Assembly: GCF_009939295.1 (NCBI RefSeq)
Contig: NZ_WVIC01000040.1
Span: 1 to 37,461 of the forward strand
Reading direction: 5' to 3'
DNA from: Petrachloros mirabilis ULC683
GTDB taxonomy: Bacteria > Cyanobacteriota > Cyanobacteriia > Thermosynechococcales > Thermosynechococcaceae
DNA length: 37,461 nucleotides
The notes under the pieces were generated by a model. The model did not search any database. It was not told where the DNA came from and was given only the letters and a program-made list of their open reading frames with translations. Shown here piece after piece: positions 20,182-37,403 of this stretch (positions are counted from its first letter, which is position 1; each line of letters starts with the position of its first letter). A program made the translations under genes and the position numbers.

Positions 20182-22071
20182 ATGCCTGATGCTGTGCCCC
20201 ATTCGCCTGTCTCTCGTCTGCTCAATCACCGCTATCAGGTGCTTCAAGTTTTGGCTGATGGCGGGTTTGGCCATACCTATTTGGCCATTGACACCCAAAT
20301 GCCCTCGGGACGGAAATGCGTGGTCAAGCAACTGAAGCCCGTGGAGAACAATGACAGAATTTACCAGTTGGTTCAGGAGCGCTTTCAGCGAGAGGCGGCA
20401 ATTCTAGAGGCGCTGGGGGAAGCCCATGACCAAATTCCCTGTCTTTATGCCTACTTTGAAGAAGATGGGCAGTTTTACTTGGTAGAAGAATGGGTGGAGG
20501 GCGATACCCTCACCCAGCGGGTACAAAAGCAAGGCCCACTCCCTGAACCTCAGGTTTTGGATATTTTGGTCAAGCTGTTGGGTGCGATCGCATTTATCCA
20601 TCAGCAGCAGATCGTCCACCGGGACTTGAAGCCCGACAACATCATCTTGCGCCAGCGAGATCAGCAACCCGTTTTGATTGACTTTGGCGCAGTCAAAGAA
20701 ACCATGGGCACCGTGATCAACTCCCAGGGACAAAGCTCTCAGTCAATTGTGGTGGGCACCCCAGGGTTTATGCCCTCAGAGCAAATGGCTGGCCGTCCCG
20801 TTTATGGCAGCGACCTGTATAGCCTAGGGTTAACCGCCCTCTACCTGCTCACCGGCAAACTGCCCCAAGACCTAGACGTGGATCTGTTCAGCGGTGATCT
20901 GCGTTGGCGACCCCTACTGCCTGACCTCAGCCCAGAATTTGCCGCCATACTCGATCGCGCCCTGCAAATGCACCCCCGTGATCGCTTTACGAACGCACCG
21001 CAAATGCTAGCTGCGCTTGACGCCTGTCGAACCTTACCAGACACCGAAGTCGTGACCCACTCTGTAGGGACCCCTACCGTTCCCACAGAAGTTGTCACAC
21101 CAGACCCCAGGGGGGTGGCTCACCCTGAAATGCCCACCCCCCTGGGGCAATCCATGCCATCGAGCCTACCCACCCAACCGGTTATGCCCCAGTCAGCCAA
21201 CCCCCAAGCTGCCGTCCCCCCCGTTACAACCCCCCAAATTGAGAGCCGCCTCCAATCCCACTCCTCGACTTCATCTTGGATGATTGCAGCGATTCTGGGC
21301 AGCATTATTGGCACCGCAATGTTAGTGACCGCCTTTTTCCTGCAAGATCAACTCCCCTTTCTCTCTGCGTTGATGGGATCTGATCGCTCATCCCCAGGGA
21401 GCGGCGTAGATCCATCCCTGTCACCTAGAACAGCGATGCCTCCGAACACCTCCCCACCAGATGGCGAATTGGAATCTTCACCCTCAGGCACACTCACCCC
21501 AGAAGCAGAGCCTAGCATAGACTCCCCTGTCAATTCTGACCCACCCCCAGGGCATTCGGATTCCACCCCTGATCCCACTGGCTTGGTCAACGCCACCATT
21601 GTGGGAGAGCCGGGCAGCAAAAATATTCGCTCTGGCCCCGGCACCCGCTTTGGCGTGCGGCATATTGCTTACCCCGGCGATCGCGTTGAAATTCTAGACT
21701 CCAGCAACGACAGCGGCGGCTTTGTCTGGCACCTGATTTATTTTCCTCAGTCTCAAGCCCAGGGCTGGATTGCCGCTCAACTCATTCAACAAGACGGAGC
21801 GTCACCTCCGCCCCAATCGCCCCCACAAACGCCTCCGCCTTCCACACCTACCCCAGACACCAATGCCACCATTGGGGGAGAGCCGGGTAGCAAAAATATC
21901 CGCTCTGGCCCTGGCACCAACTTTGGGGTGCGCCATATTGCTTACCCCGGCGATCGCGTCCGCATTCTCAACAGTGAGCAAGATAACGGCGGCTTTGTCT
22001 GGTACGAAATCTATTTTCCCAAGTCCGGGGCTAAGGGCTGGATCGCGGCTCAACTGTTATCTGTAGACTAG
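20182..22071 (+). CDS. Hanks-type Ser/Thr protein kinase with transmembrane segment and two SH3b domains
   Basis: This protein of 629 residues (from ATG 20182) is a eukaryotic-type Ser/Thr kinase. GGGAG 7 bases upstream favours this ATG over the GTG at 20161. Kinase landmarks are the glycine loop DGGFGHTY (26-33), Lys49, VHRDLKPDN (Asp148), IDFGAVKE (Asp167) and VGTPGFMPSEQ, so it should be active. A Pro/Ser/Thr-rich linker leads to a membrane segment (about 370-390), another linker, and two nearly identical SH3b domains (NIRSGPGT-FGVRHIAYPGDRV) near 480-545 and 565-629. SH3b domains outside the membrane often bind cell wall. It is followed by a membrane-anchored carboxypeptidase, which fits an envelope-sensing role; that link is inference. 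Confidence 0.93.
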   Translation: MPDAVPHSPVSRLLNHRYQVLQVLADGGFGHTYLAIDTQMPSGRKCVVKQLKPVENNDRIYQLVQERFQREAAILEALGEAHDQIPCLYAYFEEDGQFYLVEEWVEGDTLTQRVQKQGPLPEPQVLDILVKLLGAIAFIHQQQIVHRDLKPDNIILRQRDQQPVLIDFGAVKETMGTVINSQGQSSQSIVVGTPGFMPSEQMAGRPVYGSDLYSLGLTALYLLTGKLPQDLDVDLFSGDLRWRPLLPDLSPEFAAILDRALQMHPRDRFTNAPQMLAALDACRTLPDTEVVTHSVGTPTVPTEVVTPDPRGVAHPEMPTPLGQSMPSSLPTQPVMPQSANPQAAVPPVTTPQIESRLQSHSSTSSWMIAAILGSIIGTAMLVTAFFLQDQLPFLSALMGSDRSSPGSGVDPSLSPRTAMPPNTSPPDGELESSPSGTLTPEAEPSIDSPVNSDPPPGHSDSTPDPTGLVNATIVGEPGSKNIRSGPGTRFGVRHIAYPGDRVEILDSSNDSGGFVWHLIYFPQSQAQGWIAAQLIQQDGASPPPQSPPQTPPPSTPTPDTNATIGGEPGSKNIRSGPGTNFGVRHIAYPGDRVRILNSEQDNGGFVWYEIYFPKSGAKGWIAAQLLSVD

Positions 22072-31090: not shown

Positions 31091-32191
31091 CTAGAGCTGG
31101 ATCGTTAAATAGCCCTGATCAAACTTGGCTCCGGTAACGGCTTGGCCTTTCAGTTCAGGCGGTAGCAACAGGTTATGGCGTTGATCGCCAGCTTCAATGG
31201 TCAGCTCTGGGCCAGACTGGGTCAGCTTGACTTGCTTTTTGTCTAGCCCAGGTAGGAAAAGCTTAACCTGTCGTTGGGCTAGGTCAATACTCAGCGGCTG
31301 GGGGGCAGGGGTCGGTTGTTGCCATGGGGGTAGCGCTGCCATCAACGGATGCCAGTCATCGGAAATGCGGGTGGGGATGGCGTGAATGTGCAGGGGGGCA
31401 AAGGCTTTAGACAAGGGTTCCGAGACGATGCCCCGATTGAGCAGAACGCCCCCAACGGTAAGGTTAATTTGTTGGGCACTGCCCCAGAGGTGCTGAGCAC
31501 TGGCTTGGGCGACCGGGTCTTCGGTGGTGACCAGATAAGCTAAAACTCGTTGAGGATCTGCGATCGCAGCTTTCCCCTGCTCAAATAAATTTTCAGCCTG
31601 TCCCACCTGCTGGTCAAAGGGGTTGCTGCCCCAGTCGGGATTGTTGAGTACCGCCGCCGCCACGGGCTGCACAAAGGGAGAAATCGCCCGCCCCAGATCC
31701 GATTCAGCAAACACCTGCCGAAACCGTCGCCCATACCAACTGGCAATTTCGGGCATCCCCAACATGCGCAGAAGTGACTGACTGCTGCTGCTATCGTAAA
31801 GAATGACATCGTGCTGACCACAGGCGTCCCACTCCTTGAGGGCATAGAGCGTTAAGGCTTCATCCATCCCTGGTAAGACGCCCAGTTCCTGTCCATAGAC
31901 TGCCTTAAAAAAGGGAGTACGCACATACTGTTCTTCTAGGGCTTTGACCTCACTCCAACTTTGAGCCAGCAGCTCTGTCGTTTGAATTTGGGCTGCCACC
32001 AAGTTAGCGGAGACCTCCCGGGGGGTGACACTCAACCCCGGTTCTCCGAGCAGAAGACCCAAGGCCGGATCAGCGCTACCCCCCACCAGCAAAACCCGCT
32101 GCCCTTGCTCAGCCAAGGCTTTGGCTGCGGCAATGGCCAAGGTGGTTCGTCCGGTTCCGCCTTTGCCCAAAAACGTGAGAATAAAAGCCAT
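31091..32191 (-). CDS. get3d: Get3d, ArsA/Get3-family ATPase with C-terminal alpha-crystallin-like domain
   Basis: This 366-residue protein (from ATG 32191) has an ArsA/Get3 nucleotide-binding domain with a deviant P-loop GKGGTGRTT (9-17), SADPALGL (switch I) and DSSSSQSLLRMLGMPE (switch II). The last 90 residues (PLSIDLAQRQVKLFLPGL to the end) look like an HSP20/alpha-crystallin sandwich. That layout and length match Get3d, the photosynthetic-lineage Get3 paralogue. Arg15 replaces the usual P-loop lysine of KGGxGKT. AGGA lies 7 bases before this ATG; the TTG at 32197 is less likely. It starts 17 bases after petP, so the two are likely one operon. Client proteins are not established. Confidence 0.85.
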   Translation of the reverse strand: MAFILTFLGKGGTGRTTLAIAAAKALAEQGQRVLLVGGSADPALGLLLGEPGLSVTPREVSANLVAAQIQTTELLAQSWSEVKALEEQYVRTPFFKAVYGQELGVLPGMDEALTLYALKEWDACGQHDVILYDSSSSQSLLRMLGMPEIASWYGRRFRQVFAESDLGRAISPFVQPVAAAVLNNPDWGSNPFDQQVGQAENLFEQGKAAIADPQRVLAYLVTTEDPVAQASAQHLWGSAQQINLTVGGVLLNRGIVSEPLSKAFAPLHIHAIPTRISDDWHPLMAALPPWQQPTPAPQPLSIDLAQRQVKLFLPGLDKKQVKLTQSGPELTIEAGDQRHNLLLPPELKGQAVTGAKFDQGYLTIQL

Positions 32192-32208
32192 GGTCAAGTC
32201 CTGAGGCG

Positions 32209-32403
32209 CTATTGAATCGGTTCTAGCTCGTCTTCAAAAAACCAGGTGCTGGAGTGGTCATCAAAGGCCACGACACAGCCAATCCCGCTGCCATCAGTCA
32301 TCTTGTACCCCTTGATGGTGCCGGTTTTGCCCAGCTTTTTGCTGATATCTTCTGATACGCGATCGCGGATACGGCAGACGCGAACTTTCTGACCTACGTC
32401 CAT
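32209..32403 (-). CDS. petP: PetP-like small cytochrome b6f-associated protein (DUF2862)
   Basis: This 64-residue protein (from ATG 32403) matches DUF2862, the family of PetP/Ssr2998, a small peripheral subunit of the cytochrome b6f complex that affects electron transport. The SH3-like sequence MDVGQKVRVCRIRDRV, GKTGTIKGYKMTDGSGIGC and FEDELEPIQ is complete. GGGAG lies 6 bases before this ATG, whereas the longer frame to 32490 has no ribosome site and unrelated upstream residues. It directly precedes get3d. A cytoplasmic-face thylakoid location follows from the family. Confidence 0.85.
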   Translation of the reverse strand: MDVGQKVRVCRIRDRVSEDISKKLGKTGTIKGYKMTDGSGIGCVVAFDDHSSTWFFEDELEPIQ

Positions 32404-32534: not shown

Positions 32535-32966
32535 TTAGAGCCATTGTCCACCTCGAAATCGCCAGTGGAGAAAAAGGAGTCGCATGAGCGATTGTGAAGC
32601 CAAGAAAATTCCCACCCACACAACCATGTAGTGCAGTAAAAACCAACCCAACTGAAACGCTTCCGCATCAACCCCTGGCAAGGAAATTGCCATCGCTTCA
32701 AACAACAGCACAATCACTAAGCCTTCCCAGAGGGCTGCTAGCCACTGATAAGCAGCCGGCCAATCTTGATCCCAGCGAAATTTTTGGAGGTAGATATAAA
32801 GCACATCCCAGCCCAACCCCAACCCCAACAGGTAAAACAAGATCGCAAAGAAAGCGGTTCCCCCTGGGCCAATCCAGCCCAGGCCAAAGGGCAAGGTTAG
32901 GAGTAAGCCGACGGTTAAAAACAGCAAAATTCGGGTTTGCCAGCGACCAAGAAGCGTTGGAGTCAT
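32535..32966 (-). CDS. Small multi-pass membrane protein, function unknown
   Basis: This 143-residue protein (from ATG 32966) has about four hydrophobic segments: ILLFLTVGLLLTLPFGLGWI, FFAILFYLLGLGLGW, LWEGLVIVLLFEAMAISL and FLLHYMVVWVGIFLA. It resembles unnamed cyanobacterial membrane proteins. Its ATG overlaps the TGA of the FHA-oxidoreductase gene as ATGA, so translation is probably coupled and the products likely work together. The longer frame reaching 33014 lies inside the upstream gene and is less likely. It may anchor the soluble FHA oxidoreductase at the membrane; that is inference. Confidence 0.72.
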   Translation of the reverse strand: MTPTLLGRWQTRILLFLTVGLLLTLPFGLGWIGPGGTAFFAILFYLLGLGLGWDVLYIYLQKFRWDQDWPAAYQWLAALWEGLVIVLLFEAMAISLPGVDAEAFQLGWFLLHYMVVWVGIFLASQSLMRLLFLHWRFRGGQWL

Positions 32967-34903
32967 GGGGTTTGGTTCCTCGCCCATTTGCACCATTGCG
33001 CCAGGGAATGCCATCCATGCAGCGATCGCAGTTGGGGAGCTCGCCCTTGAGCCAAACTATTCACCGCACACAAGGCTGCATACTGCAAGCCTAAAAAGCT
33101 ATCGACCGCCGCATAGGGGCCACCAAAGGTAATGGCACCCGCCGCATACATGCGTCCTTTGTGGTTTCGCATTTCCACCAGTTCAAAATCGTTAGTCACT
33201 GCCAGTCGTCCAGCTAAGTTCAGGGGCAAATTGTAGTGGGTGACCAGCTCATCCAAGAGGGGATTGGTTTTGACCTTGCCGTCTAGACCCGTGGCATCAA
33301 TGATAAAGTTTGCCTCTAGCTTAATTTCGCCCTTAAGCCCCATCTCTTGAATAAAGGTGAGGGGGCAGCCCTGGGCATCAGGCTCAACTCGGGTGACCGT
33401 ACCAAACCCAACTTGATACCAGCCTTCATCTAAGCCCGCTTGGACAATGCGCTGCCAGTCGCCCCGGTCAGCGGTGGTGGTGCCCCCCCAGTCGGCCAAA
33501 AGGCGCATCCGCTCTTCAGGGCCAGCTTGCTCTAGCTGCGATCGCAACGTCCCTCCCCAACAGGCCTTAGGCCAGTTAAAGGGCTGAAGCTCAAAGTGAT
33601 TGCTCACTGCCCGACGCGCGTATTGAAATTGATTTCCCTTGGGTTTGGGCGATCGCATCAGATGTAAGACTGCAATGTTGGGATTGCGCTGACGGGCTTC
33701 GTAGAGTCGCTGCAAAATTCGGGAAGCCACGATCCCTCTGCCCCGAATCAAAACCGTGCCTCCCTGGCGCTCTAACGCCTGGTAAACATGGTCATGGGCT
33801 TCGTAAGCATTGACCACCACCTGAAAATCTTGGGTGCGCTCCCGATAGTCTTGCAGATCTGGTAAAAACTGAATGGCCGGATAGCCCGTCGCCAAGTGGA
33901 TATAGCGAGCGACCAAAAAGGCATATTGTCCTCGCCCCAAGGCATAGGCAATAGCATAGCGCCCATCATCCGTCTGCCGAATGGCACGAATGCGGCCAAA
34001 CCGATACATCTGGGGCCAGCCGATGCGAGTCGCTTCTCGATCAATAGAAGCAAAAACGCGCCCCGACTTGGGCGTATAAGTTTCCGCAAAGGTTGGCTCT
34101 GCAAAGACCTGCCAGAGTCGATACCCAACACTCCGAAGCTGACCCTGGGTGAAATCATGCCAAGCCTCCCGCAAGGCATACCCTGGCCACCCCCAAATGT
34201 TATCGGGACAAGAATCAGAATTAGACCGCAGGCGCTCATGGGCCGGAATTTGAGAATTCAGGCACAGACGTTGATACCGAGCATAGGGTTGGGCTTCCAG
34301 ACCAATGACCCGCACTTGCTGGGGAGAAACCCCGCAAAGGCGCAGTAGATCCACCCAGACAAAGCTCCCCAACCCTGCACCCAGCGCCCCATAATCGACT
34401 TCCTCGACCGGATATTGGGTGGCATACAATGCCTGGATGTTGACCTGCCGAGACTGAAAAAACGGCGGCGGAAAGGCGCTCGTCACCGGAGCCACTTCGG
34501 GAATCGGATCGGCAATCAGGATCACAGAATCGCCCCGAACTCGATTAGCCCCTAAATCTGTATCATCTCTTAACAGCAGGGTGATTCGGTAAGGCCCAAT
34601 CTCTAGTACATCCCCATGATTGAGTAGACAGTCTGTTTGCCGCCCCCCGTTAACTTGAGTGCCATTGCTGCTGTTTTGATCTTGGAGACGCAACTGGTCG
34701 TTTTCCCAAGTGAGGAGTGCGTGAAACCGCGACACTTGACCACTGTTGAGGACAATTCGGGACACCCGCTGCCCCTGCCAATCCACAGGCATGTGCGTGA
34801 ACTCGCGCCCCAGTGCAATCGGGGGTGACAGGTGGGGAAGCCGTTGTTCGCCCGTACTGGGATCTTGCCAACTGAGGCGAATGGGCGCAGAAGAAGTTGC
34901 CAT
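32963..34903 (-). CDS. FHA domain fused to a FAD/NAD(P)-binding oxidoreductase-like region
   Basis: This 646-residue protein (from ATG 34903) begins with a forkhead-associated domain (about 28-110) with GRE (32-34), SRFH (58-61) and SSNGTQVNG (78-86), the phosphothreonine-binding residues. The remaining 500 residues look like a two-dinucleotide flavoprotein: GALGAGLGSFVWVDLL (172-187), a second Rossmann-like GTVLIRGRGIVASRILQRL near 400, and late NFIIDATGLDG and GRMYAAGAITFGGPYAAVDS. This recalls the FAD/NAD(P)-binding monooxygenase-like group; substrate is unknown. The start sits 4 bases after the FHA-zinc ribbon gene, and the stop overlaps the membrane-protein start. The longer frame to 35314 overlaps the upstream gene out of frame and is rejected. 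Confidence 0.82.
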   Translation of the reverse strand: MATSSAPIRLSWQDPSTGEQRLPHLSPPIALGREFTHMPVDWQGQRVSRIVLNSGQVSRFHALLTWENDQLRLQDQNSSNGTQVNGGRQTDCLLNHGDVLEIGPYRITLLLRDDTDLGANRVRGDSVILIADPIPEVAPVTSAFPPPFFQSRQVNIQALYATQYPVEEVDYGALGAGLGSFVWVDLLRLCGVSPQQVRVIGLEAQPYARYQRLCLNSQIPAHERLRSNSDSCPDNIWGWPGYALREAWHDFTQGQLRSVGYRLWQVFAEPTFAETYTPKSGRVFASIDREATRIGWPQMYRFGRIRAIRQTDDGRYAIAYALGRGQYAFLVARYIHLATGYPAIQFLPDLQDYRERTQDFQVVVNAYEAHDHVYQALERQGGTVLIRGRGIVASRILQRLYEARQRNPNIAVLHLMRSPKPKGNQFQYARRAVSNHFELQPFNWPKACWGGTLRSQLEQAGPEERMRLLADWGGTTTADRGDWQRIVQAGLDEGWYQVGFGTVTRVEPDAQGCPLTFIQEMGLKGEIKLEANFIIDATGLDGKVKTNPLLDELVTHYNLPLNLAGRLAVTNDFELVEMRNHKGRMYAAGAITFGGPYAAVDSFLGLQYAALCAVNSLAQGRAPQLRSLHGWHSLAQWCKWARNQTP

Positions 34904-34907
34904 GCCC

Positions 34908-35432
34908 CTAAGACTTAGACTTTGGAATAAAGATACTTTGGGCTGCTGCCAAAGAAACCCCACACCAAGGGCACCCCTGCCGCAACAGGGTTTCGCTGTA
35001 GGGCGAAACTTTCCCACATCGGGGATTAGGACATTGCAAACTGTAGACATTTTCGAGGTCTGGCGGAAGCGAGATCGGGGGTGCCAGCACGCCGTGATCT
35101 CCTGCACTGAGACGGGCAACGGTGAGTACGACTCGCCCGAGTTGAATGGTGCTACCCAGGTGGAGGGGCTTTTGCCCCTGAGGTAAAGAGATGCCATCAA
35201 TGGCAGGGGGATTCGTCGGGCGGAGATTCCGCAGGTAAAACTGCTGATCTTGAGGTTGGTAATAAATTTCAGCGTGGAGCCCAGAAACGCTGCGATCGCC
35301 AAACACCAAGTCACACTGATCTGGATCTCGTCCCAGGCGGACAGTTCCAGGATGACGACTAGGCTGTTGGTCTCGAATAGAGAAGGTTTTCACTTGACCG
35401 GCTTCAGTCCACTGAAGCAGCAGTTCAGGCAT
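34908..35432 (-). CDS. FHA domain protein with C-terminal zinc ribbon
   Basis: This 174-residue protein has an FHA domain (about 25-108) with GRDPDQCDLVF (34-44) and SGLHAEIYY (50-58); Arg35, Ser50 and His53 are present. The usual NGT loop is replaced by TNPPAIDG (73-80), so phosphopeptide affinity may be altered. A zinc-ribbon-like tail has Cys134, Cys139, Cys154 and Cys157 (CPNPRC and CPWC). The gene heads a three-gene minus-strand operon with the FHA oxidoreductase and the membrane protein, and diverges from FHA-PrsW across a gap of about 200 bases. The tail could bind nucleic acid or protein; the partner is unknown. Confidence 0.85.
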   Translation of the reverse strand: MPELLLQWTEAGQVKTFSIRDQQPSRHPGTVRLGRDPDQCDLVFGDRSVSGLHAEIYYQPQDQQFYLRNLRPTNPPAIDGISLPQGQKPLHLGSTIQLGRVVLTVARLSAGDHGVLAPPISLPPDLENVYSLQCPNPRCGKVSPYSETLLRQGCPWCGVSLAAAQSIFIPKSKS

Positions 35433-35634
35433 AGTGAGGGGGTAGCGCTAGATAAAAAATGATTCATTCCAAAGGATGATAATTCCAGAATAGTCGGATA
35501 TGCTGAGCGCAGCAATGGCAGAGAGACACTGAGCTTTCTGGTGGTGAGCAGAGCATTGGCGTAGTAGAGTTTTGAATATAACTTATCCTGCCAAGCTATC
35601 TTGCCAAATCAAGTCGGGGTGAATGGCTTAACAG
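35433..35634. promoter_or_regulatory. Divergent promoter region of the two FHA operons
   Basis: About 200 bases separate the FHA-zinc ribbon start and the FHA-PrsW start. TAGAGTTTTGAATATAACTTA near 35564-35584 contains a TATAAC-like -10 candidate for the plus-strand gene. The AT-rich AAAAAATGATTCATTCC near 35455 may serve the minus strand. These are visual guesses. Shared upstream DNA allows co-regulation of both sides. Confidence 0.35.
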
Positions 35635-37206
35635 ATGAAAGGGTCTATGCCAAATGCTCACACTCAAGGGTGGCTAGTGGCGGTGGGCAGCAGTGCTAGT
35701 CCTGCGGCAGTACCCCAATGGCATCCTTTGACAACTGCGAAAGACTGTGTTCTTGGCCGTAATCTGGACTGCCAAGTTATTTTAGACTCATCCAACTATA
35801 GTGGGGTGTCACGCCGTCACGCCGTCATTAAACCCTTGCTGGAGTCTCCCCCCCGCTGGCAAATTTGTGACCTAGACAGCGCCAACGGCACCTTCGTCAA
35901 CGGGCAGCGCCTGCAAGGCTGCCGTCCGTTGCAGGCAGGGGATCGAATCATGCTTAGCCAGGATGGCCCCCAGTTTGTATTTGAGTCCAGACGGGACTCT
36001 GAAGCAAGACCGAGGGCACCACTCGCCCAACAGGCCCTAGCAGCAAGCCAAGAGGCACCCGCCGCTGTCACCTTGAGTCAGTTATTGCCTGTCCTTTCAA
36101 CCCGCCGCGATTTAACCCGCAAAGGTTTTCTTGTTCCAGGACTGATCACCGTTTTTTTGGTGGTGGCGCTCTTTTTTTCCCTGGGAAATCGAGATTTGTT
36201 CAACAGCTTGCTCGCCCTATATATCGGAGGGGGGGGACTGTTCTTCATCTATCGTCTCTGTGGCAAGCCCAAGCCCTGGTGGATGATGGTTCTGGTGATC
36301 ATTTCCATGGTTTTGATTCTAGAGTCCCCCATCGTGGAATTGTTTGTGTTGGTCTTTCGGGAGTTGTTGCCAGGAAATGTGGAGGCTGTGGGGTCGGGAT
36401 TTTTGGCGCAGTGGATTGGTCACTTTTTTGGCGCTGGGATGATGGAGGAGTTATTGAAAGTTCTTCCCCTGGCACTTTTGCTGGTGATTGGCCGACCCCG
36501 AGCCTTGAAGCCAACCCTGGTAATTCTAGTGATTTTAGGTGGGTGTTGTGTCCTAGTGTTGCTGGCATTAGTGGGTGCATCGATGCGGCAACCAGAACTG
36601 GGGGATCTGGTGACTCGTAAAGTTGTTTCCACTGGATTGTTGGCGGGCTTGGCAGTGCTGATCCTAACGGTTGCCAAGTCTCTAAAGCCCCCTGCCCAAG
36701 CCATTTTGGGAGTATGGGAGCCCCTGGATGGCATTTTATTTGGAGCCGCTGCTGCCCTGGGTTTTACTTGGCTAGAAACCCTGGGCCAATATGTGCCCAG
36801 CGTCATTCAGGATATTGACTCAACCCTTGGGACAGGATCAGGGGATCTGGTGGGACTGCAACTCTTGATTCCACGAATTTTGGGCAGTGTGGCGGGTCAT
36901 ATGGCCTACAGCGGCTATCTCGGATATTTCATTGGCTTGAGTGTGCTGAAGCCGACTCAGCGCTGGAAGATTCTGCTGGTTGGCTACTTGAGTGCGTCGG
37001 GGCTCCATGCCTTTTGGAATGCCTCAGCAGTGGCATTAGGGGGCATTCCAGTGCGGCTGGGGGGGGTGTCGGTGAGCCTGGGAGCGATGGCGCTGATGGT
37101 CGTGGGGATGGTGTCTTACGTGTTTCTGGTCGCGGCAATTTTGAAGGCGCGGCAGTTGTCCCCAACGCGATCGCAGAATTTTGCCACTCGGATGTGGGAG
37201 CCATAG
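35635..37206 (+). CDS. FHA domain fused to a PrsW-type intramembrane protease
   Basis: This 523-residue protein starts with an FHA domain (about 32-118) with GRNLDCQVIL (41-50), SRRHAVI (59-65) and SANGTFVNG (82-90), all key residues present. From about 165 it has eight or more membrane segments of the PrsW/CPBP-related glutamic membrane protease type: MMEELLKVLPL (269-279, the EExxK motif), GFTWLETLGQYV, HMAYSGYLGY and SGLHAFWN. Bacillus PrsW performs site-1 cleavage of an anti-sigma factor. The cytosolic FHA could gate proteolysis by phosphorylation; that is inference. ATG 35635 is used; ATG 35647 with AAAGG upstream is also possible. Confidence 0.9.
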   Translation: MKGSMPNAHTQGWLVAVGSSASPAAVPQWHPLTTAKDCVLGRNLDCQVILDSSNYSGVSRRHAVIKPLLESPPRWQICDLDSANGTFVNGQRLQGCRPLQAGDRIMLSQDGPQFVFESRRDSEARPRAPLAQQALAASQEAPAAVTLSQLLPVLSTRRDLTRKGFLVPGLITVFLVVALFFSLGNRDLFNSLLALYIGGGGLFFIYRLCGKPKPWWMMVLVIISMVLILESPIVELFVLVFRELLPGNVEAVGSGFLAQWIGHFFGAGMMEELLKVLPLALLLVIGRPRALKPTLVILVILGGCCVLVLLALVGASMRQPELGDLVTRKVVSTGLLAGLAVLILTVAKSLKPPAQAILGVWEPLDGILFGAAAALGFTWLETLGQYVPSVIQDIDSTLGTGSGDLVGLQLLIPRILGSVAGHMAYSGYLGYFIGLSVLKPTQRWKILLVGYLSASGLHAFWNASAVALGGIPVRLGGVSVSLGAMALMVVGMVSYVFLVAAILKARQLSPTRSQNFATRMWEP

Positions 37207-37281
37207 CCATACTCGACAGCTATACTCAACAGTCTCAAAGAGCATTCTCCCTGTAGAATGAGTTAGGCTAAGTCGCCTTCT

Positions 37282-37368
37282 GGAGAGGTGGCAGAGTGGT
37301 TGAATGCGGCAGACTCGAAATCTGTTTTGGGGTCAAACTCAACGGGGGTTCGAATCCCCCCCTCTCCG
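37282..37368 (+). tRNA. tRNA-Ser (anticodon CGA)
   Basis: An 87-base class II tRNA. The acceptor stem GGAGAGG (37282-37288) pairs with CCTCTCC (37361-37367), with discriminator G37368. The anticodon loop CTCGAAA is closed by GCAGA/TCTGT and gives CGA (37316-37318), reading UCG. A long variable arm follows, then the T arm with GGTTCGAATCC. CCA is not encoded. Confidence 0.97.
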
Positions 37369-37403
37369 TTCTAGAACTAGCTTCTAGCCTTTATTTAGCT
37401 AAT

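Follow-up and report, generated by a model that had tools for sequence, protein, structure and literature searches.

Three genes for FHA-domain proteins lie within 3 kb of one another on contig NZ_WVIC01000040.1 of the cyanobacterium Petrachloros mirabilis ULC683. Which of these genes, and which of their neighbours, work together? In the window (the whole stretch of 37,461 nucleotides that was analysed), the minus strand carries the genes of an FHA-zinc ribbon protein (called the adaptor here), an FHA-fused flavoprotein and a multi-pass membrane protein, and the gene of an FHA-PrsW intramembrane protease runs divergently from them. A sequence-only reading had joined all four, together with a more distant Hanks-type kinase gene, into one phosphothreonine-gated pathway of redox reaction and membrane proteolysis. 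We found that the minus-strand genes do belong together, as a functional unit that is conserved across cyanobacteria, and that FHA-PrsW is a bystander, not a component. With a probability of roughly one half, the trio is a module in which an FAD/NAD(P)H enzyme of the class-B monooxygenase or two-dinucleotide-binding fold acts with a dedicated four-span protein, and to which cyanobacteria added phosphothreonine control.

The distribution of these genes was surveyed in 194 cyanobacterial genomes. Full-length relatives of the FHA-flavoprotein are present in 54 of them, and relatives of the membrane protein are present in the identical 54, with zero exceptions (Fisher test, 2e-49, a value that is uncorrected for phylogeny and inflated by shared ancestry). 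This concordance persists within genus g32, which contains species with the unit and species without it. The two proteins also co-occur when their genes are unlinked, as seen in seven families (genomes G098, G115, G191, G179, G009, G017, G002, G027, G056 and G130); in G130 the flavoprotein gene lies elsewhere, and the adaptor and membrane-protein genes are still together. The adaptor is found in 51 of the 54 unit genomes, 50 through a simple search and one more (G157) through a profile. In G009 the contig stops at the gene, and the adaptor was not seen there.

At 79 of the 80 named loci the adaptor gene immediately precedes the flavoprotein gene, the single exception being cut by a contig end. 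Pairwise protein distances are correlated between the flavoprotein and the membrane protein (r = 0.81) and between the flavoprotein and the adaptor (r = 0.91). Two genomes, G193 and G115, have two diverged copies, and each membrane protein mostly shares the nearest lineages of its own flavoprotein; the L178 and L180 copies match clearly, the others less sharply. FHA domains are common in the source genome, with 21 matches to PF00498, which speaks for a chance grouping of FHA genes. Three of them within 3 kb, out of that total, nevertheless amount to clustering, as the sequence-only reading had it. Given the perfect co-occurrence and the retained gene order, coincidence has next to no probability as an explanation of the trio; for the PrsW neighbour it holds.

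The core of this unit also exists outside cyanobacteria. In a search that covered annotated plasmid records (72,556) and viral contigs, the sole non-cyanobacterial record is from the actinomycete Nonomuraea gerenzanensis, which encodes the flavoprotein domain without FHA at 37.5% identity (the pair is at L231:11923-13853; PLSDB lists this 11.85 Mb record as a plasmid, but it is evidently a chromosome). The only membrane-protein match among the plasmid records starts within the stop codon of this same flavoprotein gene, with a 4-base TTGA overlap resembling the ATGA overlap in the window. Flavoprotein and membrane protein therefore make up the core, with FHA as an add-on that we see in cyanobacteria. 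Judging from these sequences, an ancient pair of flavoenzyme and membrane partner probably came under FHA control in cyanobacteria; alternatively, FHA may have been lost in the actinomycete, which is represented by one genome. No viral origin was indicated: 40 pattern matches in viral contigs included no relative, and the actinomycete membrane protein has no phage match. A role in anti-phage defence was rejected, as PADLOC gave no match.

We then investigated the flavoprotein. Its 507-residue domain matches nothing in Pfam or the PDB in sequence searches, and profiles of the flavoprotein and membrane-protein families retrieve neither a solved relative nor a convincing Pfam family. An AlphaFold2 model of the domain built from 44 relatives (pLDDT 84.6, pTM 0.85; a first model from 12 sequences with pLDDT 70 was not used) predicts a two-Rossmann FAD/NAD(P)H fold of the two-dinucleotide-binding kind. 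The "flavin-type oxidoreductase" of the sequence-only reading is thus upheld by structure prediction, whereas sequence searches alone show no oxidoreductase. The top Foldseek hits are the SidA/PvdA ornithine hydroxylases (E about 1e-16 to 1e-15). A second structure aligner puts YpdA at the top by Z score (24.8 over 309 residues) and gives its longest alignments to the N-hydroxylating monooxygenases PvdA, SidA and DfoA (Z 21-23 over 367-381 residues). The flavoprotein appears to share with these three enzymes the overall fold and the order of the FAD and NAD(P) Rossmann motifs, the latter as read from the sequence. It differs from them in its 11-16% identity, its fused FHA and its dedicated membrane partner, and the PF13434 family profile touches only 1 of 44 flavoprotein members, with an E-value of 0.2.

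A disulfide-reductase mechanism is unlikely, because no cysteine is invariant across the cyanobacterial and actinomycete flavoproteins; a reductase of the YpdA or thioredoxin-reductase type would need a redox-active cysteine. The core might instead be an NAD(P)H dehydrogenase-like donor, a soluble flavoprotein that reduces a quinone or the membrane protein and oxygenates no substrate. Such a donor would suit a fold that is common to YpdA, thioredoxin reductase and the ferredoxin-NADP reductases of that type, and it would suit the obligate four-span partner with its conserved polar residues D54, D66, D68, E81 and H112. On the other hand, the longest structural alignments go to the N-hydroxylating monooxygenases, the lack of an invariant cysteine counts against it as well, and we saw no haem or iron-sulfur motif in the membrane protein. 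This alternative is possible, though clearly not the likelier one. We favour a predicted NAD(P)H enzyme of monooxygenase-like or quinone type, which would use FAD and NADPH.

The FHA domains of the trio look competent for phosphothreonine binding. In the adaptor, G34, R35, S50, H53 and N74 are conserved in at least 95% of 75 non-redundant homologues, as are three of the four ribbon cysteines. In the flavoprotein FHA, S58, R59, H61 and N80 are invariant in alignment A1, and R33 is nearly so, being replaced by K in one member (L030). The predicted phosphothreonine-contact residues (Gly-Arg, Ser-x-x-His and Asn) are thus retained in both alignments, as expected of FHA family members, in agreement with the binding role that had been assumed. 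One side observation is that the flavoprotein of G088 (L025:1501-3918) has two tandem FHA domains. The best solved-structure match of the flavoprotein FHA is GarA (E 2.6e-9). In mycobacteria and corynebacteria, central metabolism is regulated by the FHA proteins GarA and OdhI, respectively, which are controlled by Hanks kinases, and there too a small FHA protein links metabolic enzymes to these kinases. In those systems, however, the FHA protein acts unattached on several enzymes, whereas here one FHA is fused to an enzyme and a second is joined to a zinc ribbon; the equivalog cut-offs of OdhI and FhaB are not reached (24.6 against 200 bits for OdhI). In the FhaA-MviN system of mycobacteria, an FHA adaptor binds a phosphorylated membrane protein. 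Our proposed module resembles this system in combining an FHA adaptor, a multi-pass membrane partner and a Hanks kinase, and differs in having a flavoenzyme, which is absent from FhaA-MviN.

Hanks kinases are the most recurrent family among the neighbours of the unit, being found in 10 of 19 genome families by unsupervised clustering of all neighbours. A Pfam scan of the 147 nearest neighbours also placed Pkinase first (n = 8), an approximately eightfold enrichment; the binomial probability is 7e-6 with a background of 0.66%, an estimate from kinase counts, and 1.3e-4 with 1%. A kinase gene lies no more than 700 bp from the unit at 5 loci against 1.0 expected (P = 0.003) and, counted by family, in 6 against 1.5 expected (P = 0.001), with distance cut-offs that were picked post hoc and loci that are partly related. 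The enrichment thus gives the kinase link moderate support, and this tempers the module reading, as do four further points. The neighbouring kinases are not one common gene. G143 and G177 keep the flavoprotein and the membrane protein, and neither the simple nor the profile search found the adaptor there. The predicted fold held in common with the hydroxylases is no proof of monooxygenase chemistry. Finally, the membrane protein of the FHA-less actinomycete keeps two of the three conserved threonines, Thr4 and Thr11 (PTLxGRxQTR).

The Hanks-kinase link of the sequence-only reading is therefore only partly retained: kinases are enriched beside the unit, but the particular kinase it named, a real Pkinase protein, is not nearer than chance would place it. 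About 10.5 kb separate it from the unit in a genome with 19 kinases, where such a distance arises by chance about 1 time in 10, and we rejected it as a dedicated kinase. A 638-aa gene beside the G009 flavoprotein gene looked kinase-like by eye and was set aside, having no Pfam match. The absence of a constant kinase neighbour is one of the points that would fit FHA domains acting as constitutive scaffolds, which join flavoprotein, adaptor and membrane protein and read no kinase signal. The FHA-free actinomycete core would also fit, as would the adaptor FHA, which carries NPPxxDG where NGTxVNG is usual. We consider such scaffolds unlikely, since the phosphate-contact positions are kept in at least 95% of the adaptors and kinases are enriched beside the unit.

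The membrane protein has about four hydrophobic spans and no Pfam match. Its extreme N-terminus, MTPTLLGRWQTR, is its most conserved part: M1-T2-P3-T4-L5-G7-R8-W9-Q10-T11-R12 are each kept in at least 95% of 59 non-redundant homologues. By the positive-inside rule, the polar residues after this N-terminus are predicted to be cytoplasmic. The conservation of Thr4 and Thr11 needs no FHA docking, because both are kept in the FHA-less actinomycete, which weakens them as evidence for docking. Thr2 is missing in that one actinomycete genome, and it alone therefore stays specifically FHA-associated. A bolder proposal is that the trio represents an undescribed class of membrane-coupled flavoenzymes, a flavoprotein with an obligate four-span partner in cyanobacteria and actinomycetes, under direct phosphothreonine control in cyanobacteria, with MTPTLLGRWQTR, and Thr2 in particular, as the phosphorylated docking site for the two FHA proteins. 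We regard this as speculative and rather doubtful.

FHA-PrsW matches the PrsW profile PF13367, and its EExxK motif is intact, as had been claimed, and present in 29 of 29 homologues checked. It shares the PrsW domain and EExxK with the PrsW family and departs from it in its FHA fusion, scoring 15 bits against the equivalog cut-off of 225. Its gene is found in 125 of the 194 genomes; 81 of these lack the unit, and 10 unit genomes lack FHA-PrsW. The residual association with the unit is weak (P = 0.002, uncorrected for phylogeny) and expected from shared distribution. FHA-PrsW is widespread at other loci (L142-L170), where it often adjoins a peptide deformylase gene (14 of 30) and, in 17 of 30, an uncharacterised gene of about 216 aa. 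Only in the window and at L031-L035 (loci of Acaryochloris, Vasconcelosia and Lyngbya confervoides) does it sit beside the unit. We judged it a bystander, and rejected it as a component, because of this independent distribution, its usual neighbours elsewhere and the small group of relatives in which it borders the unit. The proposed membrane-proteolysis arm is thus not supported. A gene order confined to this genome was to refute the sequence-only reading; the trio order, kept across cyanobacteria, escapes this, but the PrsW link, limited to close relatives of the window, comes near to it.

The divergent arrangement in these few loci is one point in favour of a single pathway of trio, FHA-PrsW and window kinase. 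A second is a gene family near the unit in 20 Nostocales-type loci (L042:12128-13018 and 19 others), whose single scanned member is an Rce1-like intramembrane protease; this may echo the PrsW neighbour or be just a common family, and we record it as a lead only, such genes being common. Set against the distribution and usual neighbours of FHA-PrsW and the distance of the kinase, a four-gene pathway is very improbable: from the proposed grouping the minus-strand trio survives, and FHA-PrsW and the window kinase are not supported.

The features of the locus are collected in Table 1. The adaptor and flavoprotein genes are spaced by 4 bases (34904-34907), and the flavoprotein and membrane-protein genes share ATGA (32963-32966), so the four ORFs, their placement, the gap and the overlap are as previously described. 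The FHA-PrsW start is an ATG at either 35635 or 35647. All three FHA domains clear the Pfam gathering score of 20.7 (52.5, 47.3 and 62.0 bits); in the Pfam scan of the window ORFs, the E-values are 2.7e-12 for the adaptor, 6.7e-14 for the flavoprotein and 7.1e-17 for FHA-PrsW.

Table 1. Features of the FHA gene cluster and the window kinase (positions in the window)
Feature	Position	Strand	Basis
FHA-zinc ribbon adaptor, 174 aa	34908..35432	-	ORF; FHA PF00498
Putative zinc-ribbon segment, C134-x4-C139 ... C154-x2-C157	34962..35033	-	sequence reading; conservation
FHA domain of the adaptor	35136..35342	-	genome search with PF00498, E 3.0e-12
FHA-flavoprotein, 646 aa: N-terminal FHA, linker, predicted FAD/NAD(P)H domain of about 507 aa	32963..34903	-	ORF; homologues; AlphaFold2
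FHA domain of the flavoprotein	34595..34768	-	genome search with PF00498, E 8.7e-15
Flavoprotein domain, predicted two Rossmann folds, class-B flavin-monooxygenase-like	32966..34486	-	structure and fold search; actinomycete homologue
Four-span membrane protein, 143 aa, N-terminus MTPTLLGRWQTR	32535..32966	-	ORF; homologues
FHA-PrsW intramembrane protease, judged outside the unit	35647..37206	+	PF13367, E 7.8e-29; independent distribution
Hanks-type Ser/Thr kinase with two SH3_3 repeats, candidate upstream kinase	20182..22071	+	Pkinase PF00069, E 1.8e-37

Other genes adjoin the cluster. PetP (a cytochrome b6f subunit) and a Get3-like ATPase (NosAFP) are encoded at 31091-32403, on the same strand after the membrane-protein gene; we rejected them as unit members, as they were not seen at the other named loci and, as far as seen, the arrangement occurs in this genome only. 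A tRNA-Ser (cga) gene at 37281-37369 is immediately downstream of FHA-PrsW. In Nostocales, a GDSL-type lipase gene lies directly upstream of the membrane-protein gene (L193:10098-10823 and other loci), in a cluster seen in 28 loci.

We propose that the module works as follows. A Hanks kinase would phosphorylate a threonine on a membrane-side partner. This partner may be a third protein, the kinase itself or the membrane protein at its cytoplasmic face. The FHA domains that cyanobacteria appear to have added, one fused to the enzyme and one in the separate zinc-ribbon adaptor, would bind this phosphothreonine, and the flavoenzyme would thereby be recruited to the membrane protein or set free from it. 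Docking at the membrane, or release from it, would switch a redox reaction on a membrane-borne substrate. In this way the module probably couples a redox reaction at the membrane to signalling by protein kinases.

The sequence-only reading had recognised no described system here, and a search confined to open, non-subscription papers that deal with FHA domains in connection with cyanobacteria, PrsW proteases or flavin enzymes likewise yielded no account of it. The cyanobacterial module of flavoenzyme and dedicated membrane partner, probably under phosphothreonine control, is genuine and apparently undescribed. It contains a widespread two-gene redox unit that was apparently overlooked, its enzyme domain and membrane protein both being without a Pfam family. 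The FHA-less actinomycete pair allows the core function to be separated from its regulation. Cyanobacteria have tens of Hanks kinases, few of which have a known output, and this module is a concrete, testable candidate for such an output.

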